This document shows positions 4,624-21,114 of a stretch of 21,650 nt of DNA, piece after piece; position 1 is the first letter of the stretch, and each line of letters opens with the position of its first letter. Source of the stretch: a virus. The notes under the pieces were generated by a model that ran no database searches, was not told the origin of the DNA, and saw only the letters and a program-made list of their open reading frames with translations. A program made the position numbers and the translations under genes. The stretch spans positions 1-21,650 of IMG/VR virus record IMGVR_UViG_3300031933_000072. One strand, written 5' to 3'.

Positions 4624-4728
4624 AATTTGTGTTTTTAAGTAGTAGTGCGGATCTGTTCCGCTTGTGTTTATTATAAGGGATGTGAGCGGTGTGGCGGGTT
4701 GCGAACGTGCCAGTTTCTCAACTGGCAC
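4624..4728 (-). promoter_or_regulatory. Cassette with the perfect 9-bp hairpin
   Basis: GTGCCAGTT (4707-4715) and AACTGGCAC (4720-4728) form a perfect 9-bp stem with a four-base loop, the cleanest copy in the window. The TGA stop of the upstream KxDG gene lies inside it. The TATAATA box is at 4669-4675. The leader contains a further GCGGA/TCCGC hairpin (4647-4661) between promoter and start codon. Confidence 0.75.
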
Positions 4729-5614
4729 ACTGAAACCTACCCTGATTAAAATTAGCATGAGAGAATACTTCACGATTCACAATTTTATACATTCCAAACT
4801 CATTCGTCATCACATAACCCTCGGCATCAATTCGATCATAACCGATATAGGCATCAGGACCATCATTACGACAGATAAAGAGACAATCTTCTTTGATAGT
4901 TTTAATCAGAATCCACAAACGAATCAGATTAGGATCACACTCAAAATCATCTTCATGAATCCTCATACCAGCGCGAATACGAGCATTAATTTGTTTTTTA
5001 ATTTGTGCCGCTTCCTTATCAGTTGCGAATCGAGTGGTGGTTGCAACTTGACGGGCAAACTTACATACATCCTCAACATCAGCGAAGGAATCTTGATTAT
5101 AAAGAATATATGCGTTTGGTTTGACGAACTTCACCGTGTCACTATCATTCCAGATGGCACGATCAGGCATCGCAACAGCATCACGAAGATCATTCTTCGC
5201 ATAATAACAGGTATGTGGCGCGATGATGATATTTTGAGTGACAATCTCCGGAAACTTATAAGTGATAGTGTTAGGAGTGTATTCATCACTACCACCTTCA
5301 CCAATAAAATCACCTTGATAGATGGTTTCCGTACAGGGCAGATAGTCAAAGCAAAGATGTAGGATCTTCGCTACTTCACCCTGATGATTTGTATCAATCT
5401 CTTCATGAGAATGATTGATTTTGATTTTAACTTTGTTGAATACGGATTTTGTGCCAACAAAGAACCTACCCGTGGCAGGATTGGTTCCCCATACAATCGC
5501 AGGAGAACCATCAATCTTAAGACTGAGAGTGCCAGGATTCACGAACCAATCAAGAACAGAAAGATCACCCGTAAGGATAGAGTCTTCTGGATGGGACAGG
5601 TGTGTGTTTTTCAT
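4718..5614 (-). CDS. KxDG nucleotidyltransferase-like (ligase superfamily) protein
   Basis: A 298-aa protein. Around residue 33 it has LKIDGSPAIVWG, the KxDG motif I whose Lys is adenylylated in ATP-dependent DNA/RNA ligases. It is followed by GRFFVGTKSVF (motif Ia-like), YQGDFIGEGG (motif III-like), and near the C-terminus EGYVM (motif IV) and MYKIVN (motif V). This order is the nucleotidyltransferase core. Homologues are common in T4-type cyanophages but, to my knowledge, have no proven reaction. Substrate is unknown: RNA, DNA or protein AMPylation are possible. A TATAAT box ends 6 bases before the ATG, so the message may be leaderless. Confidence 0.82.
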   Translation of the reverse strand: MKNTHLSHPEDSILTGDLSVLDWFVNPGTLSLKIDGSPAIVWGTNPATGRFFVGTKSVFNKVKIKINHSHEEIDTNHQGEVAKILHLCFDYLPCTETIYQGDFIGEGGSDEYTPNTITYKFPEIVTQNIIIAPHTCYYAKNDLRDAVAMPDRAIWNDSDTVKFVKPNAYILYNQDSFADVEDVCKFARQVATTTRFATDKEAAQIKKQINARIRAGMRIHEDDFECDPNLIRLWILIKTIKEDCLFICRNDGPDAYIGYDRIDAEGYVMTNEFGMYKIVNREVFSHANFNQGRFQCAS

Positions 5615-5677: not shown

Positions 5678-6061
5678 CTAGCGTGGGTTGCGAATATCAG
5701 TATCTCTGGTTGTAAAGTCCCTAGACCTGCCACGATTTTTTTCAAATCCATGAGACTTATAAAACTTTGCTAATTTTGCTTTCTTACCTTTGTCCGGATC
5801 CTGAGTAAGTGTCATTCTTTTTTTCTGCTTATCCGCATATTTTGTAAGACCCTTCAGCACTCTTGTTCCAATTCCTTTGCCTTGCATATTTGGAGGAACG
5901 AAGAGTTGATTTACACGAAGATCACCAGATTTATCATCGTGCGAAACATCAACATTTGTTCCGGGATGCTTTCTTCCATATGCCCGATCTATTTTACGAA
6001 GAACTTCCTTTGGTGGTCTTGCTTCTTTTGCTTCTGTAATGAACTGGGAGAATGTTTTCAT
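5678..6061 (-). CDS. GNAT acetyltransferase with capsid-targeting-like peptide
   Basis: A 127-aa protein. Residues 48-80 form the GNAT core: a strand (LRVNQLFVPP) then QGKGIG (60-65), the acetyl-CoA pyrophosphate loop (Q/RxxGxG/A), then the helix RVLKGLTKYADKQ. FYKSHGF (100-106) is the family's C-terminal motif. The N-terminus MKTFSQFITEAKE closely resembles the MKTYQEFIAEA propeptide that targets T4 internal proteins to the head and is cut by the prohead protease after the Glu. It is strongly basic and ends in an Arg-rich tail. It overlaps the upstream gene by ATGA. Inference: a head-packaged enzyme that acetylates a host target after injection. Confidence 0.82.
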   Translation of the reverse strand: MKTFSQFITEAKEARPPKEVLRKIDRAYGRKHPGTNVDVSHDDKSGDLRVNQLFVPPNMQGKGIGTRVLKGLTKYADKQKKRMTLTQDPDKGKKAKLAKFYKSHGFEKNRGRSRDFTTRDTDIRNPR

Positions 6062-6453
6062 CTAAACCTCTTTGCTACTTTTGGTTTTTGTATTCTTCCA
6101 GATCGGTTTACAATTTTCTTTGATGCATATTCGGGATCCATCGCAACAGAATAGTGTCTTATTCCTCTGGAATCAATACCTCTTTGACCTTGGGTCTTAA
6201 CTGCTTTGGCACCTTTTTCTGGTTTATCTTTAATCTTCTTCTTTGGAACCAACATCGTAATTACGGAAGGGTTCTCATCATATCTTCTACCAAATCCACG
6301 AGCAGTTTCTGGACTAGTTGATGTATGAACCTCATCTCCCGTATATCCAGACTTTTTAATCTTCTTGGCAGAATCAGAAGATGTTCCGTGCTTAAGACTC
6401 ACCATTTTTAATGTTTGTTCTGCTTCTGTGATGAACTCTTTATAAGTCTTCAT
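6058..6453 (-). CDS. ADP-ribosyltransferase-fold-like protein with capsid-targeting-like peptide
   Basis: A 131-aa basic protein starting MKTYKEFITEAEQ, again nearly the T4 head-targeting propeptide. Residues 20-70 read LKHGTSSDSAKKIKKSGY, then VHTSTSPETARGFG, then SVITMLVP. HGTS, a VHxSTSPExA strand-helix and a following strand are typical of the ART/PARP/KptA fold, in which the His and the second-strand Ser/Tyr contact NAD. A clear catalytic Glu could not be placed, so activity is uncertain. T4 packages and injects the ART Alt, which makes the combination plausible. It sits between the GNAT gene and the 197-aa gene with ATGA overlaps on both sides. Confidence 0.65.
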   Translation of the reverse strand: MKTYKEFITEAEQTLKMVSLKHGTSSDSAKKIKKSGYTGDEVHTSTSPETARGFGRRYDENPSVITMLVPKKKIKDKPEKGAKAVKTQGQRGIDSRGIRHYSVAMDPEYASKKIVNRSGRIQKPKVAKRFR

Positions 6454-7043
6454 TTCTTTGATTTCTTTTCTCTTGCTTCTTTTGCTTTTGCTGCTTTTGC
6501 GAGTGTTCTTGCTCTTGCTGCATTCCTTTCTTCTTGAGAAATATTAAACATATTCCTATCAGTAACTAATCTTTCTCTGGGTGATTCGATGTCTGATTCA
6601 CTTAGAATAGACTGAACCCAGTTGTCGCTGATATTCTCTGCCATAACTTCGGCACCATCGAGACTATCGGCATAACCTTCATCAAATAGATAATGAGCGA
6701 CGATTACATTACTCATATTTGTTCTTCTTCTTTTTCCTGTTGGTTTCTTTTCTTCTGGTTCTGGTTCTGCTTCTGGTTCATTTTTTCTTGAGGATCTAAC
6801 TCTCACGCTTCCCCCCGGAGGAACACTAAAATCACCGCGATTCATTCTTTCTATATTCTCAACAGAACGTCTTTCTGATGGTTTGAGTGGAAATGAGTGT
6901 GCTAACTTGCGACGTGCTTCATTTAGTTCCTCAAACTCATCGTCACTCAAAGACTCTACTAATTCTTCTGCTTCCTCATAAGAATCGGCATAACCCTCAA
7001 AGTATAAAAACTGAAGTATTTGGTGATATTCGTAAGAAGACAT
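6450..7043 (-). CDS. Protein with twin EGYADS repeats, 197 aa
   Basis: Two related helical repeats are visible: residues about 10-40 (FLYFEGYADSYEEAEELVES) and about 117-147 (YLFDEGYADSLDGAEVMAEN). Each ends in an acidic S-D segment followed by a hydrophobic residue pair. Between them lies a Pro/Glu/Lys/Arg-rich linker, and the C-terminus is an Ala/Lys/Arg-rich helix. Repeats of this kind occur in proteins of T4-type cyanophages and pelagiphages; I know of no assigned function. First gene of the three-gene unit with the ART-like and GNAT genes, behind a late-type promoter at 7071-7078. A head-associated or internal protein is plausible. Confidence 0.8.
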   Translation of the reverse strand: MSSYEYHQILQFLYFEGYADSYEEAEELVESLSDDEFEELNEARRKLAHSFPLKPSERRSVENIERMNRGDFSVPPGGSVRVRSSRKNEPEAEPEPEEKKPTGKRRRTNMSNVIVAHYLFDEGYADSLDGAEVMAENISDNWVQSILSESDIESPRERLVTDRNMFNISQEERNAARARTLAKAAKAKEAREKKSKK

Positions 7044-7070: not shown

Positions 7071-7078
7071 TATTTATC
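7071..7078 (-). promoter_or_regulatory. T4-type late promoter, GATAAATA
   Basis: The minus strand reads TTTGATAAATAAAGAGAAG, one base from the T4 late consensus TATAAATA, with no -35 needed. It lies 28 bases before the 197-aa gene, so the GNAT/ART-like operon is probably expressed late, with the structural genes. Confidence 0.6.
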
Positions 7079-7101: not shown

Positions 7102-7638
7102 TTATGGATTTTGGAACGTCTTTACATATCTAATGCTCTTCATATAAGAGATCTCACTATTCTTAACGACTAATAACTCAGATTTAACTTCACGCCAGGT
7201 ATAATTTCTATTTTTGTCTAAATGAAAATTAAAACCATTAAATCCCCAGTCAAAAACACCAAGACACGCTATTAGTGGGTGTTGATCGTAAAGAAGTCCT
7301 GGTGTCTTGGCGAAATATCTAAAGGTGAAGTATTTTCCGGGAATTGGTGGAGAGTTTGTGTCCTTAAAAACATCCAGAATCACATTCATTATGCTTTCTG
7401 GTCTTTTTGATGTTTTTTCGAGTCTTTGTTTAAGAATATCAATTCTTGTTAGATTTGCTGTTGCTTTTTGATAATCTTTGTCGTCCTTAAGAAGTTTTAC
7501 TAATTGATCTTTCGTTAGACTTTCATAGTTACTAATGGATCCCTGTCCCGATTTGGTTGTGTAATAAACAGTATATCTTTTCGCAAGAGATACTAATTCA
7601 TTTTTACTTAAAGCATCAAGAAGGGATGGTGGTATCAT
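7102..7638 (-). CDS. Conserved phage protein with SAP-like N-terminus, 178 aa
   Basis: Residues 1-55 (SLLDALSKNELVSLAKRY ... YESLTKDQLVKLLKDD) look like two short helical Rho-N/SAP-type units. The C-terminal part has PGKYFTFRYFAKTPGLLYDQ, then HPLIACLGVFDWGFNGFNFH. This pattern (Gly-Lys-aromatic strand, a D.HPL motif, then G-F-G-x-N-hydrophobic-H) is shared by a widespread uncharacterised family in T4-type phages, which I cannot tie to a function. Its start is one base from the stop of the 86-aa gene, so it is probably coupled. Confidence 0.75.
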   Translation of the reverse strand: MIPPSLLDALSKNELVSLAKRYTVYYTTKSGQGSISNYESLTKDQLVKLLKDDKDYQKATANLTRIDILKQRLEKTSKRPESIMNVILDVFKDTNSPPIPGKYFTFRYFAKTPGLLYDQHPLIACLGVFDWGFNGFNFHLDKNRNYTWREVKSELLVVKNSEISYMKSIRYVKTFQNP

Positions 7639-7639
7639 A

Positions 7640-7900
7640 TTAAGGTTTTAACATTTTCTTTGCTGCTTTCTCGGCATCGTTTTCTCTTTGTTTAATTACT
7701 TTTCTTACTGCACCACCACCAGACATTTTCATCATCGCTGCTACTTGTGCCGCTCTTTCTGGAGAATTAGGAGCAGAATCACCATAATTTACTATTTGTG
7801 GCGTTGCTTGTTCTCTTCCTGCAAGATAAGCACTCTTAAGTCTTTTTATTTCTTTCTTCTTACCTTCAATAAGAGTAAGGAATTGATTAAAAGTAATCAT
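7640..7900 (-). CDS. Small basic protein, possible internal head protein, 86 aa
   Basis: It begins MITFNQFLTLIEGKKKEIKR. The MxxFxQFL start resembles the capsid-targeting peptide less closely than the two proteins above, because no Glu follows the Ile/Leu at the expected place. The rest is Ala/Lys/Met-rich and helical (ERAAQVAAMMKMSGGGAVRK, AEKAAKKMLKP), basic overall as expected for DNA-associated internal proteins. A late promoter (CATAAATA) lies 13 bases upstream. Confidence 0.75.
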   Translation of the reverse strand: MITFNQFLTLIEGKKKEIKRLKSAYLAGREQATPQIVNYGDSAPNSPERAAQVAAMMKMSGGGAVRKVIKQRENDAEKAAKKMLKP

Positions 7901-7912
7901 CTTTTTTTAAGA

Positions 7913-7920
7913 TATTTATG
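7913..7920 (-). promoter_or_regulatory. T4-type late promoter, CATAAATA
   Basis: The minus strand reads CTCATAAATATCTT. It lies between the stop of the 72-aa gene (7924) and the ATG of the 86-aa gene (7900), leaving a very short leader. One base differs from TATAAATA. Confidence 0.6.
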
Positions 7921-7923
7921 AGT

Positions 7924-8142
7924 TTATTTGATATGATCCTTGAGACTATAAAAGTATTCTAGTCTAGCGATGTCTTCCTGTAGTCTAACTCCCTTGGTAT
8001 AACGAACAAAGTGCCTCTCAAGAGTGAGTTCCTCTTCTGAAAAAGGAATATCATTCTCTCTCTTGAACCTGATGTTCTGTGCGAATTGTGTAATGTGATT
8101 TACAGGTAAATTAAGAAACTCCTCGTAAGACATTTGAGACAA
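7924..8142 (-). CDS. Hypothetical helical protein, 72 aa
   Basis: It begins MSQMSYEEFLNLPVNHITQF and is mainly helical with mixed charge (FKRENDIPFSEEELTLERHF, then ARLEYFYSLKDHIK). The family is not recognised. It lies behind an ATTAAATA late-type motif that overlaps the stop codon of the deaminase gene. Confidence 0.78.
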   Translation of the reverse strand: MSQMSYEEFLNLPVNHITQFAQNIRFKRENDIPFSEEELTLERHFVRYTKGVRLQEDIARLEYFYSLKDHIK

Positions 8143-8162
8143 TAAGTGTTGTTCTTCTCTAC

Positions 8163-8170
8163 TATTTAAT
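8163..8170 (-). promoter_or_regulatory. Late-type promoter overlapping a stop codon, ATTAAATA
   Basis: The minus strand reads GATTAAATAGTAG; the TAA is the stop of the deaminase gene. It is two bases off TATAAATA, so it is a weaker candidate than those at 7071 and 7913. Confidence 0.4.
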
Positions 8171-8600
8171 CATAATCAAGTTTTGTATAAAGAAACTCCT
8201 GATCGCTGGTACTCCAATGAATTTCTTTAATTGTAGGGCAGTTGGTTCTTATATACAAGTAACAAATAGGGCAACAAAAACTATTTCTTAATTCTTTACC
8301 ACTATGACCTCCCACTCTACAAATGACTAGTTTGTGCCCGGATTTTCTTGCCCTAATAATACAATTTAATTCGGCATGAAGAAATGTCTTGAGTGCCAGC
8401 TTGGGATCCTTATACTTTTTAGATGCCATCACAGCGGCATAAAATTGTCTTGTATGTGTAATCTCATAAGAATTAGTACCAGTAGAAATAATCCGGTTTC
8501 TCTTATTCAAAAGAATTGCGGACATTCTTTGACGAGCATTAGATGCCATCGCAACAGATATGGCATGATCCGTGATTTCCTTTTTAAGAGGCGAAATCAT
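8166..8600 (-). CDS. Zinc-dependent cytidine/dCMP deaminase-like protein
   Basis: A 144-aa protein from Met 8600 (MISPLKKEITDHAIS). HAEL (His75, Glu77) and CPIC (Cys110, Cys113) form the zinc and catalytic site of the cytidine deaminase superfamily. NRIISTGTNSYE earlier is the usual core strand and loop. T4-type phages use dCMP deaminase (gp cd) in nucleotide supply, but this one is short and lacks features I would need to assign the substrate. Start choice: the longer frame (from 8642, or ATG 8624) overlaps the TATAAT box of its own promoter; Met 8600 follows GAGAAGAAA, a good Shine-Dalgarno. Confidence 0.8.
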   Translation of the reverse strand: MISPLKKEITDHAISVAMASNARQRMSAILLNKRNRIISTGTNSYEITHTRQFYAAVMASKKYKDPKLALKTFLHAELNCIIRARKSGHKLVICRVGGHSGKELRNSFCCPICYLYIRTNCPTIKEIHWSTSDQEFLYTKLDYD

Positions 8601-8622
8601 TTTCTTCTCATCTAGTAAAGTC

Positions 8623-8652
8623 ATTATACAGCACAAGGGCACCAGAAATCAA
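8623..8652 (-). promoter_or_regulatory. Sigma70-type promoter before the deaminase gene
   Basis: TTGATT (8652-8647), an 18-base spacer, then TATAAT (8628-8623). The spacer holds GGTGCCC and matches the promoter at 20298-20326. The -35 element overlaps the stop codon of the upstream HNH gene. Its host-type architecture suggests early expression, unlike the late-type boxes nearby. Confidence 0.6.
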
Positions 8653-9518
8653 GTCAAGTGTTCCAGTATGCGAACCGTCCATCCCTTATGATGTCTTTGT
8701 TTGCCTTGTGATACTTTACACATAATTCTCCTATCAAGACCATACTGTGGATTTTCTTTACAAAAATTAGTTAGATTATTTGTTATGAATACTTCTCCAT
8801 TTGGACTTTTTAATTCATAAATGTATTTACTATGAGATTTGGATATTTTTATTTTTGTTTCTTCTTTATGTTTCCAATCAACTCTCATTTTTCTTTTTAT
8901 ACTAATTTTTTCTTTTCTTTCTTCACTACAAGGACAATTCATTCCCATTACCCATCCCTCTCCAGGACATTCAACTGAAAGTCTGCGATTTTCTTTTCCA
9001 TTATTCCACCATTTTTTCCCTTTATTATGTCCTAAATTTTTCCTATGTGCTACAGAAACAGGTTTTCCTGTCTTTCCTTTACGTATTTTTTCTTTATGCT
9101 CTTTAGATTTTGGTATTCCCTTCAGTTTTTTGCTTAAATATTCTCTTTCTTCTTCAGTATAAATTTTACCATAATTATGATTATTTTCACCACTTATTGA
9201 ATTTACATATCTTGTCTTGAGATTTTCATACAAATAAGAATTTATATACTTATTTTTAGAATTTCTTTTACAACTCATAGCAAGATGAGCACAAATCATT
9301 TTTTGAGTTTTGTAATGATTTAATCCATATCTTTTTATACAAATCTTTTCTAATAATGCATGAGCAACATAGTGTTCTCTTGCGGTAAGCACAACAATCA
9401 TATTATTCTTTCCAAATATACTTACTGGAAATGTATGGTGTTTTTCTGTATAACCTTCAGGAGGAGTTCTGTTTTCTGCTTTCCTGATAAGATTACAATA
9501 AACCTTTAGATAGTTCAT
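8649..9518 (-). CDS. HNH homing endonuclease with NUMOD3 repeats, 289 aa
   Basis: Residues about 16-65 (GYTEKHHTFPVSIFGKNNMI then LTAREHYVAHALLEKI) hold the HNH metal site: paired His, then a zinc-free His-Asn pattern common to phage HNH enzymes. NUMOD3-type DNA-contact repeats follow (NYGKIYTEEEREYLSKKLKG, SKEHKEKIRKGKTG, CSEERKEKISIKRK). The C-terminus (YELKSPNGEVFITNNLTNFC to GKQRHHKGWTV) is a helix-turn-helix-type DNA-binding unit. The frame is open to 9584, but Met 9518 (MNYLKVYCNLIRKAEN) follows the shared AGAATAGAAATG start seen at two other endonucleases here. The gene is more AT-rich than its neighbours, consistent with transfer. Confidence 0.9.
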   Translation of the reverse strand: MNYLKVYCNLIRKAENRTPPEGYTEKHHTFPVSIFGKNNMIVVLTAREHYVAHALLEKICIKRYGLNHYKTQKMICAHLAMSCKRNSKNKYINSYLYENLKTRYVNSISGENNHNYGKIYTEEEREYLSKKLKGIPKSKEHKEKIRKGKTGKPVSVAHRKNLGHNKGKKWWNNGKENRRLSVECPGEGWVMGMNCPCSEERKEKISIKRKMRVDWKHKEETKIKISKSHSKYIYELKSPNGEVFITNNLTNFCKENPQYGLDRRIMCKVSQGKQRHHKGWTVRILEHLT

Positions 9519-9622
9519 TTCTATTCTATTGAGAGTGCATAAGTATTTATAATACTTTATAATAGAAAAGGTGCCCGAAAGCACCTAATCTTCCTGTGAA
9601 ATTGCACTCTCAACAGGCATCA
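9519..9622 (-). promoter_or_regulatory. Structured endonuclease leader A
   Basis: Arms TTGAGAGTGCA (9529-9539) and TGCACTCTCAA (9603-9613) are perfectly complementary over 11 bp. They enclose the terminator hairpin (9569-9586) and an inner late promoter, TATAAATA (9544-9551). An outer ACTAAATA motif overlaps the stop codon of the 78-aa gene. A read-through transcript would fold the arms together just before the start codon; a transcript from the inner promoter would lack the distal arm. Confidence 0.75.
9569..9586 (-). terminator. Intrinsic terminator hairpin in leader A
   Basis: On the minus strand AGGTGCT pairs with GGCACCT (one U-G pair) around a UUCG loop, followed by TTTTCTATT. This would stop or reduce transcription arriving from the 78-aa gene. 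Confidence 0.7.
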
Positions 9623-9859
9623 TTATTTAGTCACAGGTTTCCTCATCGTATAAGTGTAATAGTGGTCTCTTCCGGATAAGTTATAAGGATCAAAATTTGG
9701 TTGGGACATTATGTATTCATCTTCCATTTGATAATATCCTGCGTTTAACTCTTCCCAAAATGAAAGATAATCTATGCGGTCATTATAATTAACAAAGCGA
9801 AAGTCAATACAATTTCTCCAAGACCAATAGGCATTCTCAACCCATTTTATGAATTTCAT
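9623..9859 (-). CDS. Aromatic-rich hypothetical protein, 78 aa
   Basis: The frame opens further upstream, but Met 9859 (MKFIKWVENAYWSWRNCIDF) follows AAGGAATTGG, a good Shine-Dalgarno, and a TATAATA box. Trp, Tyr and Phe are very frequent (YLSFWEELNAGYYQMEDEY, GRDHYYTYTM). The family is not recognised. Its stop overlaps the outer promoter of leader A. Confidence 0.78.
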   Translation of the reverse strand: MKFIKWVENAYWSWRNCIDFRFVNYNDRIDYLSFWEELNAGYYQMEDEYIMSQPNFDPYNLSGRDHYYTYTMRKPVTK

Positions 9860-9929
9860 CCAATTCCTTGTGTATAAGAGTATTATACCAGATTTTTGAG
9901 AATTATGGTGTGTTCCTTGTGACAGTTTC
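9860..9929 (-). promoter_or_regulatory. Promoter cassette with TATAATA box
   Basis: The box is at 9881-9887 (minus strand reads GGTATAATACTCTTATACAC). The 5' part of the cassette, GGCACTTGAGAAACTGTCAC, overlaps the end of the 68-aa gene and supplies its TGA stop. No strong GGGCA/TGCCC stem is present here. Confidence 0.55.
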
Positions 9930-10136
9930 TCAAGTGCCCTCAAACACCATTAAGTCCCACTCCTCATAACGGGTCTCTAACTTCCCGTCCTTGAGAAAAA
10001 TATTCAGGTGCCCGATGCGCCCGTCTTCCATATAAAACGCACACCACAAATGTCTTTTAGTATCCATCACCTCATAATGAAACATTTTGATGTCATCCAA
10101 TAAGAACTCATCGGGATTATGTATTAGTTTATCCAT
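9930..10136 (-). CDS. Hypothetical protein, 68 aa
   Basis: It begins MDKLIHNPDEFLLDDIKMFH. A strand-rich centre (LWCAFYMEDGRIGHLNIFLK) suggests a small beta-sheet. It ends VFEGT, where the final Thr and stop codon lie in the downstream cassette. Its ATG shares one base with the TGA of the membrane protein gene. The family is not recognised. Confidence 0.8.
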   Translation of the reverse strand: MDKLIHNPDEFLLDDIKMFHYEVMDTKRHLWCAFYMEDGRIGHLNIFLKDGKLETRYEEWDLMVFEGT

Positions 10137-10318
10137 CAGTCTTCACCACCAAACAAAGAAAAAAGAAAGTACCATACTACGCCCAAAAGACCCAAAAGAG
10201 ATGGAATAAACACCATCCAACCAAAGATGATTGGATGTGTCGCAAGAAGATAAACGACGAGTATAATCAATAATACTGCGAAAGGTAATGTGATTGATGC
10301 TTTTACTTGCGGTTTCAT
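10136..10318 (-). CDS. Small two-helix membrane protein, 60 aa
   Basis: It has two hydrophobic segments, about residues 8-27 (ITLPFAVLLIILVVYLLATH) and about 30-56 (IIFGWMVFIPSLLGLLGVVW), joined by a short turn. This suggests a helical hairpin in the inner membrane with a short charged tail (FGGED). Its ATG overlaps the stop of the exonuclease gene as ATGA. No family is recognised; a holin is one possibility but nothing specific supports it, and no lysin lies next to it. Confidence 0.82.
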   Translation of the reverse strand: MKPQVKASITLPFAVLLIILVVYLLATHPIIFGWMVFIPSLLGLLGVVWYFLFSLFGGED

Positions 10319-10923
10319 TTCATCTCCTTCATTTCATTTTTATATTCCTCAAACTTCCTTTGTTTATTCAGGAAGTAAAAGAAGAACCTCAAGGTATTTT
10401 CTGCGTCAATCTCCGCTCTGTGTGAAGTTCCAATAAAATCAAGACCATAAGAAATCATAGACTTACGCAGACCACCAGAGGGTGTTTTGCCCTGAACCAT
10501 TTGATTAAAGACATACAGAGTTTTTACATCAATCACTCTCCTTCCAAAAAATGGGAAGTCAATACCTCGTTCTCTAAACTCATCTTTGAGTTCTGTAGCA
10601 TCATTTTCGGCACCACCACCCCAGACAATTGGATTGACGAAACACTTATTCTCGGTAATGATGTTCCCGAGTTCTTGTGCTACTATCTGGTGAGATACTG
10701 CCTTTTCTTTGATGATTTCGTCTGTGATACCTGTGAGTTGTTGAATAAAAGGAGTTATGGGTTCTTGAGGGTCAAGATACCAAGAAAAAGTTTTTATATC
10801 ATCAGGCATCACAGGAGATGCTACTGATACACCAACCTGAATAATTCTGGGTGTGGTTCCATCTTGTTTTGAGTTTAGTTCCAAATCCAAACTGAAATAG
10901 GTTTGGTCTCTAACTGGGTTCAT
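10315..10923 (-). CDS. DEDDh 3'-5' exonuclease (DnaQ/RNase T-like)
   Basis: A 202-aa protein with the four acidic metal ligands: SLDLELN supplies Asp13 and Glu15; WGGGAENDATEL supplies Asp108; SHRAEIDAENT supplies His168 and Asp173. LTGITDEII (64-71) is the usual exo I/II linker. This length and order fit a stand-alone exonuclease rather than a polymerase domain. Substrate could be DNA or RNA; similar enzymes are called exonucleases in T4-type cyanophages. It sits within a chain of five genes, each overlapping the next by ATGA. Confidence 0.88.
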   Translation of the reverse strand: MNPVRDQTYFSLDLELNSKQDGTTPRIIQVGVSVASPVMPDDIKTFSWYLDPQEPITPFIQQLTGITDEIIKEKAVSHQIVAQELGNIITENKCFVNPIVWGGGAENDATELKDEFRERGIDFPFFGRRVIDVKTLYVFNQMVQGKTPSGGLRKSMISYGLDFIGTSHRAEIDAENTLRFFFYFLNKQRKFEEYKNEMKEMK

Positions 10924-11135
10924 AATATCTCAAGTTCATCAGCAAGTTCATAAAGTTTGTAAGCATCTAAAATCATATCCTCACCTTCACTTGTATTGTA
11001 GTATTGGAGTTCATTTGCTATTTCTCTAATTGCGGTTGATAAACCTTGTCTTACATCCTCACTATCTTTTACACCATTATCAATCAATTCACCCTTGAAT
11101 GCCTCCCAGATTTTTTGTGCTCTATCAGTAGTCAT
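10920..11135 (-). CDS. Hypothetical helical protein, 71 aa
   Basis: It begins MTTDRAQKIWEAFKGELIDN, then VRQGLSTAIREIANELQYYN, and ends YKLYELADELEIL. Acidic, all helical. The GLSTAIREIA motif resembles GFASALRVLAD (18839-19078 gene) and AIANALREAV (14936-15199 gene), so these may be distant paralogues. Function unknown. ATGA overlaps on both sides. Confidence 0.82.
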   Translation of the reverse strand: MTTDRAQKIWEAFKGELIDNGVKDSEDVRQGLSTAIREIANELQYYNTSEGEDMILDAYKLYELADELEIL

Positions 11136-11356
11136 TCTTCTTCACTCATACAAGGATACTCAAACTTTTCACCGATTTGTTCTAAAAGTGTGCGGGCAAG
11201 ATGAATTTCACCATAATCACCACCATCCTCAAAGGCATCATCATAACTACCAGCACTTGGAGTATAATCATCTCCATCTACATCATAGCAGTGTTTTACC
11301 TCTGCGTATTCTTTGAGTTTATTGATGAGAAGTGTGAGTTTTTCTTTGGTAGTCAT
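11132..11356 (-). CDS. Acidic hypothetical protein, 74 aa
   Basis: It begins MTTKEKLTLLINKLKEYAEV, a helix, then an Asp/Gly-rich stretch (YDVDGDDYTPSAGSYDDAFE) and a second helix (IHLARTLLEQIGEKFEY). The Asp-rich part could bind metal but no EF-hand is complete. The family is not recognised. Middle gene of the overlapping chain. Confidence 0.82.
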   Translation of the reverse strand: MTTKEKLTLLINKLKEYAEVKHCYDVDGDDYTPSAGSYDDAFEDGGDYGEIHLARTLLEQIGEKFEYPCMSEEE

Positions 11357-11688
11357 TTTACCCCCAGAAGTTCTTTTTCTTCATCAGTCAAGGAAGCAAG
11401 GTCTTTCTTGAGTTGTTTAAGTTTTTGTTCCTTTGCCTTTTCTTTCTCTGCCTTTTCTTTCTCCAATTGCTTCATCCGTTTCTCATACTCTTTGTCGGTT
11501 TCTTCACGATGCTTGTAGAGATAATACTCGTCTGAATCACCATGATACCCATATGAAATCTCAATACCTTCCCAACCATCATCCAACTTTTTTTGGAGTG
11601 AAGCAATAATACTCTCAAGAGAACCATCAAAGTTCCTCCAGTATTGTTGAGTTTCTTTGACTTGAATTTTTTTAGGTTGGTTAGTCAT
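11353..11688 (-). CDS. Coiled-coil hypothetical protein, 111 aa
   Basis: The N-terminal half is globular (QQYWRNFDGSLESIIASLQK, then WEGIEISYGYHGDSDEYYLY). The second half (about 60-105) is a long Lys/Glu-rich coiled coil (ETDKEYEKRMKQLEKEKAEK and on). It ends LTDEEKELLGVK. It is the first gene behind the 11689-11771 cassette and leads the chain to the exonuclease and membrane protein. Confidence 0.83.
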   Translation of the reverse strand: MTNQPKKIQVKETQQYWRNFDGSLESIIASLQKKLDDGWEGIEISYGYHGDSDEYYLYKHREETDKEYEKRMKQLEKEKAEKEKAKEQKLKQLKKDLASLTDEEKELLGVK

Positions 11689-11771
11689 TTCAGGTGTCTG
11701 TGTGTATGAAAGTATTATAAGGCATCAAAGGGCACCTGTGGAGATGCCCTGTGCCAGTTTAGAAAGTGTCC
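11689..11771 (-). promoter_or_regulatory. Cassette with two alternative stems
   Basis: GGCATC (11721-11726) pairs with GATGCC (11743-11748), but GGGCA nearby can pair with the same right-hand TGCCC, so the two stems exclude each other. The TATAATA box is at 11713-11719. The TAA stop of the 109-aa gene opens the cassette (TAAGGACACTTT). Confidence 0.65.
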
Positions 11772-12101
11772 TTAAAATTTCTCTTCAATTTCTTGTTCTG
11801 TTGCTACATCCACATTAGGATAACTCACATCTTCATAATCACCAAAGTCAAAATCCATAATCAGTTTTGAGGCAACATTATCACACAGATAATCCGCAAA
11901 AATGTTAGGGTCAAGTTCTCCGTCATCTGTAAGCATATCATTATCCTTTTGCTTTTCAGGGTCAAACCTCATATAAAAAGTTACTTTATAACCTTTTAGA
12001 TTTTTTAGATTATCTTTGTGTTTTTCTTGTTCCTTATGTTTTTGGATTTGAAGTTCAAGTTCGTTGATTTGTTCTTCGGTTAGTTGAGAGAGGTCAATCA
12101 T
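11772..12101 (-). CDS. Acidic hypothetical protein, 109 aa
   Basis: It begins MIDLSQLTEEQINELELQIQ with an N-terminal helical coil, then a strand (YKVTFYMRFDP) and a strongly acidic C-terminal half (LIMDFDFGDYEDVSYPNVDV). It was not recognised. The whole protein is very acidic apart from a short Lys-rich section (KHKDNLKNLKGYK). It is a single-gene unit with its own cassette on each side. Confidence 0.83.
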   Translation of the reverse strand: MIDLSQLTEEQINELELQIQKHKEQEKHKDNLKNLKGYKVTFYMRFDPEKQKDNDMLTDDGELDPNIFADYLCDNVASKLIMDFDFGDYEDVSYPNVDVATEQEIEEKF

Positions 12102-12179
12102 CAGTTTGGTTGCTTATGAGACTATTATAGGGCATCTGGTTCCCCTGTGGGTGCCCTTGTGCCGGTTCCTCAAGTGTCC
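12102..12179 (-). promoter_or_regulatory. Promoter/stem-loop cassette
   Basis: The box is at 12123-12129. On the plus strand GGGCATC/GGTGCCC forms a central stem with one imperfect pair; GTGCCGGTTCCTCAAGTG follows. The TGA stop of the 116-aa gene opens the cassette (TGAGGACACTTGA). Confidence 0.65.
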
Positions 12180-12530
12180 TCAAACCCAAGTTCTAACACT
12201 TGCCTTTGGATGTTCTTTACAAGCATCCAACACCTCTTCCACAAAGGGAACAAAGTGTTCGTAAGTTCCCCAACCATTAGAAGCATCAAACTGCTTATAA
12301 TGCTCTGGATGAGATTTGAGTTTTAGAAGTCCTGCCTCAAGATGTGGAATAAGTTTATCAGCAGTTGGATTTTCATAAAGGTCATCAGGATGCCACAGAC
12401 ACTTATAGATGCCTGCTTCTTCTGCCATCGTATTCAGGTTGTGAGTGATATTAGAAGAAAACAACTCAACCTTATGAGGTTCTTTTCCGCCCGTATCCAG
12501 TTCCATTTCAAGGTAGAAATCAAGAGACAT
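12180..12530 (-). CDS. Conserved hypothetical protein, NITHNL family, 116 aa
   Basis: It contains VELFSSNITHNLNTMAEEAG, then IYKCLWHPDDLY, and NGWGTYEHFVPFVEEVLDAC. I recall this combination (xNITHNL, AGIYxxLW, NGWGxYExxxxF, CxExPxAxV) in a widespread small protein family of phages and bacteria without known function. The His/Asn/Trp pattern is well kept, so the gene looks intact. It starts MSLDFYLEMELDTGG, about 23 bases after its TATAATA box. Confidence 0.85.
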   Translation of the reverse strand: MSLDFYLEMELDTGGKEPHKVELFSSNITHNLNTMAEEAGIYKCLWHPDDLYENPTADKLIPHLEAGLLKLKSHPEHYKQFDASNGWGTYEHFVPFVEEVLDACKEHPKASVRTWV

Positions 12531-12600
12531 AATGTGTTTGTATGTATGAGTGTATTATAGGGCATCTGGAGGGTCTTGTGGGTGCCCTTGTGCCAGTTTC
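12531..12600 (-). promoter_or_regulatory. Promoter/stem-loop cassette
   Basis: The box is at 12553-12559. The stem and hairpin match the 12102 copy closely, but the intervening bases differ. The 5' end of the cassette lies in the 72-aa gene, whose last codons (GAC ACT TGA) are cassette sequence. Confidence 0.65.
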
Positions 12601-12819
12601 TCAAGTGTCAGTTCCAATAAGATTAGCAAGTTGTTGGACGGTCATATCAGCAAGAGTTCCAAGAGGAACCATTTCCTCTCTTGACCGAACACACCCGTAA
12701 TCAAATCCATCCCTATAAGCATCCTTCATCAGGTTATAAAGTTCCGTAAAATTAGAAGATGAAAGATTTAGTAATCCCCGCAGTTCTATAAGTTTGTTAT
12801 GGGTATTGTCGGAAAACAT
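12601..12819 (-). CDS. Hypothetical protein, 72 aa
   Basis: It begins MFSDNTHNKLIELRGLLNLS and is helical. AYRDGFDYG in the middle is the aromatic-xx-Gly-aromatic motif that recurs in several small proteins here. It ends MTVQQLANLIGTDT, with the final Asp-Thr and stop supplied by the downstream cassette. AAGGAACTCCAA gives a clear ribosome binding site. Confidence 0.82.
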   Translation of the reverse strand: MFSDNTHNKLIELRGLLNLSSSNFTELYNLMKDAYRDGFDYGCVRSREEMVPLGTLADMTVQQLANLIGTDT

Positions 12820-12905
12820 TTGGAGTTCCTTTGTGTATGAGTGTATTATAGGGCATCTGGAGCGCCCTGTGGGTGCCCTTGTGCCGGTTCATCAAGTGTC
12901 TGGTG
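12820..12905 (-). promoter_or_regulatory. Cassette read through as coding sequence
   Basis: The box is at 12844-12850. The layout is as at 12531, but here the 92-aa gene has no stop at the cassette border. Its frame runs through the hairpin and stem and stops at the TAA inside the TATAATA box. Confidence 0.65.
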
Positions 12906-13697: not shown

Positions 13698-14282
13698 TCA
13701 TACCACAGGATTGATATTTTGGAAAGGTGCTTGTTCCAGTTTTTCAACCGATACAATATCTTTATGAGTTTTATGTTTTTCTCTATAAACTTTGGAAATA
13801 GCATTATCATCATATCCATTTTCTTTTGCCCAAGTATGAATACCACAAAGTATAATTTCTCTACCATCGGCAAAAGTTATTTTCCACCATTTTGCCCTTG
13901 AACTTTTTTCTCCAATTTTTCCTCTCATCTTTTCTCTGGTCTCTTCTGTAACAACTTTGTTTTTATGTTTTTTTCCTATTTTCTCTTTTGTTTCTTTTGT
14001 GTGAATATATCCAGTTTTTCCTTCTCCACCGTCAGTTCTATTTCTTAATATTCCAGTTCCCAAATCTTTTCTACCAAAAACAGAAATCATATAGATTTCG
14101 TGTCTAAATGCTTTTTCTTCGGTAAGATTTTGTTTGAGGAAGATTATTCTGGATTTATCTTTTGGTGGGGTGTTTCTTCTACAAGTTGAGTAAATCCTAT
14201 CCTCTTTACCTTTCCCAATATAATAAGGTGTCTTATCTTCCCGCAAATAAGCGTAAGTATAAAACCTGTTAGGATTTACCAT
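13698..14282 (-). CDS. GIY-YIG homing endonuclease, 194 aa
   Basis: YTYAYL (8-13) and YYIGKG (20-25) form the two GIY-YIG strands. Arg29, Glu62 (FRHEIYMI) and Asn81 in NRTDGGEG match the catalytic Arg, Glu and the Asn loop. NUMOD3-type segments follow (HTKETKEKIGKKHKNK, TEETREKMRGKIGEK), then a C-terminal helix-turn-helix-like domain (ITFADGREIILCGIHTWAKE and on). The family spreads by cutting unoccupied copies of its site. The gene is free-standing, inserted between the 125-aa and 181-aa genes with no sign of an intron, and carries leader B. Confidence 0.9.
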   Translation of the reverse strand: MVNPNRFYTYAYLREDKTPYYIGKGKEDRIYSTCRRNTPPKDKSRIIFLKQNLTEEKAFRHEIYMISVFGRKDLGTGILRNRTDGGEGKTGYIHTKETKEKIGKKHKNKVVTEETREKMRGKIGEKSSRAKWWKITFADGREIILCGIHTWAKENGYDDNAISKVYREKHKTHKDIVSVEKLEQAPFQNINPVV

Positions 14283-15633: not shown

Positions 15634-16353
15634 TTATAATATTCTGCGTCTCTTGGAAGTGTCTATACCTCTTGCTCTTTGGTATTTTGCGAGATTTCCA
15701 GCATTAGTTACAAAACCAGTTTCAAGACATTCCCATTTTTGATTTGCTGGTTTATCAGTATTTTTATAGTTAAGCATTCTCCTCATTTCAGACCTCCTAT
15801 TTCTTTCTTCGTCCGTAATGTTTTGTTTTTTACCTTTTTTTTCTTTATTTTTTTCCGATACATCTGGTCTTTTTTTACCATACATATGGTTATTCTCTCC
15901 ACACATATTTTTTCTGTTTCCTGATGTATTTGGTCTTTTTATACCTTTCATTTGTCTATTTCTTTCTGCTAAATCTGGTCTCTTTTTTCCATACATTCCA
16001 TTTTTTTCACCTTTAGTTACTTCAGACATTTTTTGTCTATATTCATCAGTTACTTTTATTCCCGATGTAGTAAATCCTGTAGAAGTTTGATATGACCTAT
16101 TAGCAAAATGTGGATTTTCAACTACTTTATAATGTTGTTGAAGAATAATTTCATCAGCATATGCTTCCTCTCTTGTAGCATAATCGTCTTTGAGTATTAT
16201 TTTGTGAGTTGGTTTAAATGTTTTATTCCTTGAAGAACCCAGATACTTTATATCTTCTTCTGGAAGACATTTACATCCTCTACTTCCAAAATAACCCCTA
16301 CCCCATTCTTCATAAGAATAATAGGTATAATAATACTCTTCTGGAGTTTTCAT
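15634..16353 (-). CDS. GIY-YIG homing endonuclease, 239 aa
   Basis: From Met 16353 (MKTPEEYYYTYYSYEEW). YYTYYSYEEWGRGYFGSRGC is the GIY-YIG strand pair in the phage variant form, with EEAYADEIILQQHY supplying the conserved Glu. NUMOD3-like repeats follow (MYGKKRPDLAERNRQMKG, MYGKKRPDVSEKNKEKKG). The C-terminal 35 residues (WECLETGFVTNAGNLAKYQR to TSKRRRIL) are nearly identical to those of the 20356-21114 protein. The frame extends to 16380, but the added residues would be leader arm sequence. Free-standing, between the 63-aa and 218-aa genes; its leader is D. Confidence 0.88.
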   Translation of the reverse strand: MKTPEEYYYTYYSYEEWGRGYFGSRGCKCLPEEDIKYLGSSRNKTFKPTHKIILKDDYATREEAYADEIILQQHYKVVENPHFANRSYQTSTGFTTSGIKVTDEYRQKMSEVTKGEKNGMYGKKRPDLAERNRQMKGIKRPNTSGNRKNMCGENNHMYGKKRPDVSEKNKEKKGKKQNITDEERNRRSEMRRMLNYKNTDKPANQKWECLETGFVTNAGNLAKYQRARGIDTSKRRRIL

Positions 16354-16462
16354 AGTTCTGCTTCTATATTGAGTTCGCAATACTATTTATACAAGAAAAG
16401 ATGCCCGAAGACACCTTTTCCACTCTTATGGATGCGAACTCATTAGAGCACTATTATTTATG
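16354..16462 (-). promoter_or_regulatory. Structured endonuclease leader D
   Basis: Arms TGAGTTCGCA (16370-16379) and TGCGAACTCA (16433-16442) pair perfectly over 10 bp with a sequence unlike the other leaders. The inner TATAAATA is at 16384-16391. The outer CATAAATA (16455-16462) contains the TAA stop of the 218-aa gene. Confidence 0.75.
16398..16417 (-). terminator. Intrinsic terminator hairpin in leader D
   Basis: On the minus strand AAGGTGTC and GGCATCTT pair over 8 bp around a UUCG loop, using two G-U pairs; TTCTTGT follows. The pairing works as RNA of this strand only, because the complementary strand would have A-C mismatches. Confidence 0.65.
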
Positions 16463-20355: not shown

Positions 20356-21114
20356 TTATGATATTCGTTTTCTTTTAGATGTATCAATTCCTCTTGCTCT
20401 TTGATATCTTGCTAGATTTCCAGCATTAGCAACAAATCCAGTTTCGCAACATTCCCACATTTGAGATGATACTATTTTTCCACCTTTTTTACTATTTTCT
20501 ATTCTTTCTTCTTTGGGAATAGAAGAAATACCACTTTTTTTACCTGCTTGACTTAATTCTTCGGCAGTCATAGCAAATATTCCAACACCAAGTTCTTTTG
20601 CTCTTTGTGCTCCCTTTTTACCATCTTCAATTTTTTGTTCTTTTGTTCTTCCAAAAACACCAGTTCCATTTTCTTTATGATTTTTTCCTGTTATTTTGCC
20701 TACTATACTTCCACTTTTTTTTCTATCTTCAATTATTTTTTCAGGTGTTCTCCCAAACAGACCAAATTTAAGTTCATATGATTTTTCCCCAACTTTTTTT
20801 CCTGTTTTTCTTCTTACATCTAATGATACTATTCCACCACAACTTTCATTCAAGCACCATTTATCAGTATTATAAAATGGTTTAATCAACCTATCTTCAA
20901 CTAAATTTGCTTCCAACCAATCTTCATCAGTAAAAGGAAAAACTTCTAATATTTGTTTCTTTGGTGTATAAAAATCCCACATCCACTTATGAGTTATAGG
21001 AGAACCCATATAATATTCATCAAACTTTTTCTCTTTATGAACTCCATAGTAATAATACAAAACTTCATCAAAGGTAATTTTGTATATGTAAATCCTTGGA
21101 CTTTGTAAAGTCAT
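20356..21114 (-). CDS. GIY-YIG homing endonuclease, 252 aa
   Basis: YIYKITFDEVLYYYYGVHKE is the GIY-YIG strand pair; EYYMGSPI and WLEANLVEDRLIKPFYN supply the following loop and conserved Glu. NUMOD-type repeats follow (FGLFGRTPEKIIEDRKKSGS, TGVFGRTKEQKIEDGKKGAQ, GIFAMTAEELSQAGKKSGI). The C-terminal 35 residues (WECCETGFVANAGNLARYQR to KRKRIS) nearly match the 15634-16353 protein. Met 21114 (MTLQSPRIYIYK) is preceded by the shared AGAATAGAA. The gene lies between the 60-aa and 78-aa genes and uses leader C. Confidence 0.9.
   Translation of the reverse strand: MTLQSPRIYIYKITFDEVLYYYYGVHKEKKFDEYYMGSPITHKWMWDFYTPKKQILEVFPFTDEDWLEANLVEDRLIKPFYNTDKWCLNESCGGIVSLDVRRKTGKKVGEKSYELKFGLFGRTPEKIIEDRKKSGSIVGKITGKNHKENGTGVFGRTKEQKIEDGKKGAQRAKELGVGIFAMTAEELSQAGKKSGISSIPKEERIENSKKGGKIVSSQMWECCETGFVANAGNLARYQRARGIDTSKRKRIS

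Follow-up and report, generated by a model that had tools for sequence, protein, structure and literature searches.

Why do two small phage proteins of different predicted fold, encoded side by side, share most of their first residues, and what would such a pair do? The question is raised by a 21,650-base virus record, IMG/VR IMGVR_UViG_3300031933_000072 (hereafter the window, i.e., the whole stretch of DNA analyzed). Its nearest named DNA matches are the Synechococcus phages S-PM2 and S-SRM01; judged by its sequence, it is a fragment of a T4-like cyanophage-type virus, kin to the viruses of marine cyanobacteria. Three genes follow one another on its minus strand with a 4-nucleotide (nt) overlap at each junction, encoding a 197-residue protein (7043-6450), a 131-residue protein with a predicted ADP-ribosyltransferase (ART) fold (6453-6058), and a GNAT acetyltransferase-like protein (6061-5678). 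We consider it quite probable that the latter two act in a T4-like cyanophage as a capsid-tagged, late-expressed module of injected effectors. Their open reading frames (ORFs) had been singled out in a sequence-only reading of this locus and exist as described there; their mutual overlap is 4 nt. The features concerned are the following.

6058..6453, minus strand: 131-residue protein with a predicted ART fold and a capsid targeting sequence
6424..6453, minus strand: capsid targeting propeptide MKTYKEFITE of the ART-fold protein, with Tyr4, Phe7, Ile8 and Glu10; predicted cut after Glu10
5678..6061, minus strand: 127-residue GNAT acetyltransferase-like protein with a capsid targeting sequence
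6032..6061, minus strand: capsid targeting propeptide MKTFSQFITE of the GNAT protein, with Phe4, Phe7, Ile8 and Glu10; predicted cut after Glu10
6450..7043, minus strand: first gene of the operon, an untagged acidic protein of 197 residues (isoelectric point, pI, 5.2) with two EGYAD-type repeats
7071..7078, minus strand: late promoter GATAAATA, 34 nt upstream of the 197-residue gene

The N-termini of the two proteins, MKTFSQFITEAKE and MKTYKEFITEAEQ, agree in 8 of the first 11 residues, and no likeness is visible beyond. T4 ipII and ipIII start with MKTYQEFIAEA; the T4 internal proteins IPI, IPII and IPIII carry the same kind of N-terminal targeting peptide ahead of small, variable mature parts. 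According to PMC9026906, the first ten residues of IPIII suffice for packaging; targeting depends on positions 4 and 7, and processing on positions 8 and 10. The two window proteins conform at each of these positions, with an aromatic residue at 4 followed by Phe7, Ile8 and Glu10. A back-translated tag motif was matched twice in the window, precisely at the two gene starts, and not once in 100 shuffles, which bears out the T4-style propeptides that the sequence-only reading had claimed. The two tag-coding stretches show synonymous differences, so their likeness is maintained at the protein level, and Phe7 and Glu10 are kept in every aligned relative (23/23 for the ART-fold protein, 15/15 for GNAT). 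Among the 593 ORFs of at least 60 residues in the window and 16 related loci, the motif core falls within the first 15 residues in 33, against 0.56 expected from its internal frequency; as these loci were picked because they hold relatives, the count speaks to placement rather than to frequency. Two other origins of the shared N-terminus were rejected: chance similarity, ruled out by the 100 shuffles and by the start placements, and common descent of both genes from one internal protein, ruled out by the different predicted folds of the mature parts.

The tag is followed by many other cargoes in related viruses. Tagged proteins were gathered by a pattern scan of IMG/VR (at least 120 stretches) and from the related loci, yielding at least 185 distinct proteins, of which those longer than 50 residues fall into at least 53 clusters. 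Unrelated mature domains follow one tag: various ARTs and GNATs, a P-loop kinase and others, including an ART-PolyVal protein over the cut-off (locus L067, E 1.5e-12), a glucosaminidase and a lytic transglycosylase-like protein; Pfam named none of the tagged proteins L091, L047, L048, L057 and L074, and the nucleotidyltransferase, HAD, ART and HNH domains suspected there by eye were not counted. Adjacent tagged genes occur in at least 32 runs of two and at least six of three (loci including redundant ones). The tagged proteins are also markedly basic: their mature parts have a median pI of 10.25, with 86% above 9 (n = 182), compared with a median of 5.2 and 22% above 9 for the tiling ORFs of the window (n = 50). 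After removal of near-identical proteins, 133 of 157 tagged proteins still have a mature pI above 9, and for the pair itself the values are 10.3-10.5. T4 internal proteins are described as basic and injected as well (PMC9026906). Seven of nine related records, the contig of L011, B23 and S-CRM01 among these, encode a prohead protease (Peptidase_S77).

The composition of the cassettes varies around the GNAT gene. An ART gene shares the cassette in 7 of 15 GNAT loci, lies 3.3 kb off in one and is missing from seven, one of which has its contig starting just before GNAT. In L009, both types of ART described below stand upstream of GNAT; L016 and L017 have a tagged P-loop kinase (AAA_33, E 1.6e-10) at the ART position. 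The GNAT gene of B23 lies opposite annotated gp25-gp6 baseplate genes, and the cassette of L002 lies opposite ORFs read as the same genes. The relatives form interchangeable islands of tagged, very basic proteins. As a separate observation, the single ORFs L016:4332-5369 and L011:3008-4321 have their two domains separated by a second tag-like stretch (GTFEEFMVES, KTFEEFINEA); judging from this arrangement, they look like fused tagged genes, which the prohead protease could process as a polyprotein.

The timing of expression is suggested by the promoter. NATAAATA is given as the late promoter of cyanomyoviruses (PMC2984593), and the window has GATAAATA at 7071-7078 on the minus strand, 34 nt ahead of the 197-residue gene that overlaps the ART gene. 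NATAAATA was located at -17 to -34 of 12 out of 15 cassette starts, compared with occurrence within 60 nt of 23 out of 274 other tiling ORFs in the window and the 16 related loci (p = 5e-10); the cassette starts had been listed by hand ahead of the computation, the window's own promoter having already been seen by eye. Counted across the whole window, the heptamer shows no enrichment (10 occurrences vs. 8.08 expected); the weight rests on the position of the promoter and on its recurrence in relatives. The late-type promoter noted earlier is thus real and recurrent and, as far as its sequence tells, a cyanophage late promoter serves the operon.

In the 131-residue protein, HGTS occupies residues 22-25 and VHTSTSPETA residues 42-51, the motifs from which the sequence-only reading had suggested an ART fold. 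The structure prediction it had named as a check was run: the AlphaFold2 model (predicted local-distance difference test score, pLDDT, 84.8) matched Tpt1/KptA best (Z 8.9, root-mean-square deviation (rmsd) 2.6, 80 aligned, 24% identity), followed by diphtheria toxin (Z 7.8, rmsd 3.3, 99 aligned), exotoxin A domain III (Z 6.5) and PARP1 (Z 6.2). Matches under Z 8 are weak singly, and the fold is persuasive because all of the 50 matches listed are ART folds; Foldseek by itself gave a best E of 4.7e-3. Among 177,635 PDB sequences, a profile search picked out seven at E up to 10, all of them diphtheria toxin or Tpt1, with Tpt1 at E 0.2-1 and the HGT and VH motifs aligned with the Tpt1/KptA family. 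As a model-based assignment, the ART fold is well supported.

Sequence families recognize the protein less directly. Pfam matched it with Tox-ART-HYD1 alone (E 0.074). The ART family was aligned from 23 members, drawn from IMG/VR relatives and falling into two types, a compact one with HG[TS] and a longer one with HYT; at E up to 1, Pfam matched ART-PolyVal in four of them, PARP and DUF3990 in two each, and Tox-ART-HYD1 and Diphtheria_C in one each, while two non-ART families matched one relative each. ART-PolyVal (PF18760) did not match the window protein, and the best of the four relatives reached 17.8 bits against a cut-off of 31.2. A tblastn search of 50,697 phage records found nothing for the window protein, and likewise for the longer ART type. 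One ART relative matches a single named phage, the T7-like cyanophage P60, in its internal virion protein (L178:3819-8738), on which the ART family profile scored 24.2 bits compared with 3.6 for the best of 200 shuffles. From the T7 counterpart, an internal virion protein is expected to be ejected; by analogy, an ART segment within such a protein would fit the same use.

The GNAT assignment is more direct. Acetyltransf_7 matched the protein with E 9.5e-9 (36 bits vs. a cut-off of 27), Acetyltransf_10 and Acetyltransf_1 also exceeded their cut-offs, and the acetyl-CoA loop QGKGIG, of the form Q/R-x-x-G-x-G, spans residues 60-65. The model, of moderate confidence (pLDDT 73.1), has the anti-CRISPR acetylase AcrVA5 as its best match (Z 11.3, rmsd 2.9, 94 aligned of 96, 16% identity; next match Z 9.7), and nearly all of the 50 matches listed are acetyltransferases, two being antizyme fragments. 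With three Pfam models, the loop and a GNAT-fold model in agreement, the earlier assignment stands. AcrVA5 was not among the PDB profile hits of the protein. Its top PHROG match was phrog_10691, a family of 3925 positions (5.6e-16), and its tblastn relatives lie in S-CRM01 (the tagged gene SCRM01_185, annotated as acetyltransferase), in B23 and, in phage Skulduggery, within a DarB-like protein. Among the aligned relatives, G65 is conserved in 15/15 and G63 in 14/15; in the B23 protein, the acetyl-CoA loop is altered.

Virion proteomes by mass spectrometry (MS) have been published for three cyanophages: 52 proteins are reported for S-CREM2 (PMC10665884), 45 for S-SCSM1 (PMC9602691) and 30 are listed for S-SZBM1 (PMC9146016). 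One fixed tag motif was run over the three genomes and annotated genes were counted, with gene totals taken as ORF numbers from the papers and records; an unannotated antisense S-CREM2 ORF fitting the motif was dropped, and S-CREM1 was left out, as its virion proteins are shown just in a figure and a supplement. By the virion proteins these papers name, 5 of 7 motif-bearing genes were detected, compared with 127 of 719 genes overall (p = 0.0025); contaminants may accompany virions purified on CsCl. The five are the S-CREM2 gp14 kinase and gp154 cytidylyltransferase, S-SCSM1 gp31 and gp91 (NMNAT), and the S-SZBM1_140 cytidylyltransferase. These MS-detected cytidylyltransferases/NMNAT and kinase begin with the tag motif and belong to other enzyme families than the window pair.

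Further tag-like starts were noticed by eye in proteins taken from the S-CREM2 virion list, outside the above count: gp6, a S-adenosylmethionine (SAM) lyase, gp12, gp13 and gp136. Viewed in this way, with no controlled count, the virion SAM lyase, 'Cas9', gp13, kinase and cytidylyltransferase of S-CREM2 have tag-like N-termini, that of gp12 coming after a leader of ~17 residues. The genes are located as follows.

L165:3837-5081, 7704-10313, 10310-10546 and 10579-12846, minus strand: tag-like virion genes of S-CREM2, by eye
L168:24608-25468, plus strand: tag-like virion gene of S-CREM2, by eye

Pfam matched nothing in the gene annotated as virion Cas9 (L165:7704-10313, minus strand) at E up to 0.01, which casts doubt on the annotation. 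Another tagged family, MKTFKQFMSESVNISGDFNG, encoded near terL (L166:44215-44535; L176:22311-22628), is undetected in the virions as reported and is possibly a core protein lost at maturation.

Together, these data suggest the following course of events. A gp55-type late promoter would drive the operon late in infection; the first ten residues of each protein, acting as a capsid targeting sequence as in T4, would bring it into the prohead core, where the prohead protease would cut after Glu10, again by the T4 precedent. The small and very basic mature enzymes would then stay with the head DNA and enter the next host along with it. As to activities and targets, we infer that the ART-fold protein probably moves ADP-ribose from NAD onto a host protein or nucleic acid, and that GNAT may acetylate a host protein. 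The purpose might be to blunt defense or to retune host machinery ahead of phage gene expression, and the tag would be portable among cargoes in interchangeable islands. The sequence-only reading had likewise proposed an injected pair that modifies host proteins. Packaging in the virion and injection into the host are likely by analogy, and packaging stands as the best inference, tagged genes being over-represented in the virions of the three MS-studied cyanophages; the modification of host proteins does not stand in the same way.

Several points weigh against an injected, enzymatically active pair. ART-GNAT pairing is not obligate, the two sharing a cassette in fewer than half of the GNAT loci. 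Two motif-bearing genes, S-SCSM1 gp30 and S-SZBM1_191, which look like one family, are undetected in the reported virions, and the motif of S-SCSM1 gp31 is probably due to chance; without gp31, the count becomes 4 of 6 (p = 0.010). No gp21 was seen in the window, itself a 21.65-kb fragment. Where shown, the Pfam ART matches of the 23 family members are all under the cut-off. An H-Y-E catalytic triad characterizes ARTs of the diphtheria toxin/PARP type. His22 is invariant in the 23 ART relatives; at position 43, 19 have Tyr and four His, the window protein having His, and no Glu occurs at the expected third catalytic position, which was placed by eye and is variable. With His43 in place of Tyr and no Glu at the third position, the window ART may be weak or inactive. 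Taken with the nearest folds, Tpt1/KptA and diphtheria toxin/PARP, the same residues leave either protein or nucleic acid as a possible substrate.

The strongest competing explanation, which we regard as plausible though somewhat short of an even chance, keeps packaging and injection and casts both proteins as inhibitors of host defense: GNAT would disable a nuclease in the manner of AcrVA5, and the ART would act on nucleic acid or a defense factor, in analogy to T4 Ip1, Ip2 and Ip3, each of which is reported to block one GmrSD restriction enzyme (PMC12373910). The rank of AcrVA5 as top structural match of the GNAT model speaks for it, as do the nearest fold of the ART model, the RNA-directed enzyme Tpt1/KptA, and the phage GNAT relative that sits in a protein annotated as DarB-like antirestriction. 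The likeness to AcrVA5, however, amounts to 16% identity, is favored by small size and is not echoed in the PDB profile hits; PADLOC gave no match either, though PADLOC does not test anti-defense. Since the structurally nearest relative of GNAT is an anti-CRISPR acetylase, defense factors are no less likely to be its target than the transcription machinery, for which there is a precedent in the phage GNAT Rac, reported to acetylate RNA polymerase alpha (PMC7824862). On the models, the AcrVA5 and Tpt1 resemblances leave an anti-defense role of the pair equally open.

The strong positive charge of the proteins could also mean that they are packaged and serve mainly a structural or DNA-condensing purpose, as degenerate folds kept as basic fillers of the head core. 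The His-for-Tyr replacement and missing Glu of the ART, as well as the altered loop of the B23 GNAT, would suit this explanation. We find it improbable, as active-site features are kept in most relatives (His22 of the ART, G65 and G63 of GNAT) and as L009 has two ART types side by side, as effectors would be. That the N-terminal likeness is no targeting signal and that the pair consists of ordinary late or accessory genes working inside the cell is very unlikely, since placement, promoter, basic charge and virion proteomes all oppose it, with the two of seven motif-bearing genes undetected in reported virions in its favor.

The reading of the pair as injected effectors can be set against known systems. 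T4 Alt is an ART of the R-S-E type, whereas the nearest folds of the window ART are Tpt1, diphtheria toxin and PARP. No Alt-type ART family appeared among the Pfam matches (E up to 1) of the window protein and its 23 relatives, no direct comparison with Alt being made, and membership in the Alt family was not adopted, as no match was found. The likeness lies in delivery: Alt is described as a head-packaged, injected ART that modifies RNA polymerase (PMC9026906), and packaging and injection are what we propose for the window ART. According to PMC2984593, alt, modA and modB are missing from cyanomyoviruses, so a tagged ART may fill part of this gap. The best fold match, the NAD-binding lobe of the RNA 2'-phosphotransferase Tpt1/KptA, involves just the C-terminal part of that enzyme (chain residues 88-176). 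AcrVA5 and the window GNAT share a minimal GNAT fold and differ in that no profile-level sequence match links them and that the window protein bears a capsid tag.

A closer parallel in gene content is offered by polyvalent proteins, which are proposed to enter the host with phage DNA and in which one GNAT family is described as typically adjoining an ART in the same polypeptide (Iyer et al. 2017, PMC5512222). The adjacency of ART and GNAT, the weak ART-PolyVal matches in 4 of 23 relatives and the GNAT relative in a DarB-like protein point the same way. The difference is that a polyvalent protein is one giant protein, whereas in the window the two are encoded by separate small genes and bear a capsid tag each. 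The T4 internal proteins, in turn, are described as GmrSD inhibitors with no enzyme activity named in the text available (PMC12373910), whereas the window proteins carry predicted enzyme folds.

This mode of delivery is already known from T4. In word searches of one open library, we found no print report of capsid-tagged ART or GNAT genes in cyanomyoviruses, nor of the tag as a mark of cyanophage virion enzymes. The paper on capsid targeting mentions a cyanophage solely in a reference title (PMC9026906), and a word search of the S-CREM2 paper (PMC10665884) returned none of the words targeting, propeptide, internal protein and N-terminal.

A broader hypothesis seems to us evenly balanced: the internal-protein tag of T4 would serve T4-like cyanophages as a general cargo code, directing swappable islands of small basic tagged enzymes (ARTs, GNATs, P-loop kinases, nucleotidyltransferases, SAM lyase) into the head for injection against host defenses and machinery, the tagged ART replacing the missing Alt, ModA and ModB and the two-tag ORFs being polyproteins processed by the protease. 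Of the cyanophages in the sea, the T4-like ones are described as those isolated most often (PMC9964418), and several have virion enzymes for which the available text of their descriptions discusses no loading signal. A readable ten-residue tag would allow the proteins they inject to be predicted from genomes only, and would turn the early disarming of the cyanobacterium, within the first minutes, into a testable list of genes.

The surroundings of the operon include three further genes.

7102..7638, minus strand: T4 gp2-like DNA end protector, neighbor of the operon (phrog_429, E 1e-15)
7640..7900, minus strand: 86-residue basic protein MITFNQFLTLIEGKK, pI 10.1, with CATAAATA 19 nt upstream
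4718..5614, minus strand: DUF6267 gene, downstream, untagged in the window (Pfam E 5.9e-78)

The gp2-like DNA end protector and the small basic gene stand upstream of the operon. The 86-residue protein matched no family in Pfam and PHROG-type family searches; its start resembles a degenerate tag, making it a possible third packaged protein. The DUF6267 gene comes after GNAT in L009 too, and L138 has a tagged DUF6267 relative. The 197-residue repeat protein has a relative at the same place in L009, and a similar repeat protein precedes the ART gene in L002. EGYADS-type repeat proteins are often first in such cassettes (window 6450-7043, minus strand; L007:3746-4552; L009:3360-4007).

Elsewhere in the window, putative homing endonucleases are encoded at 15634-16380, in which NUMOD3 was recognized, and at 20356-21114 (minus strand); together with L006:4083-4652, they have an alike C-terminal stretch with a KYQRARGIDTSKR-type motif. 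Further putative homing endonucleases lie at 8649-9584 and 13698-14282, and an HNH gene at 1980-2519 on the plus strand.
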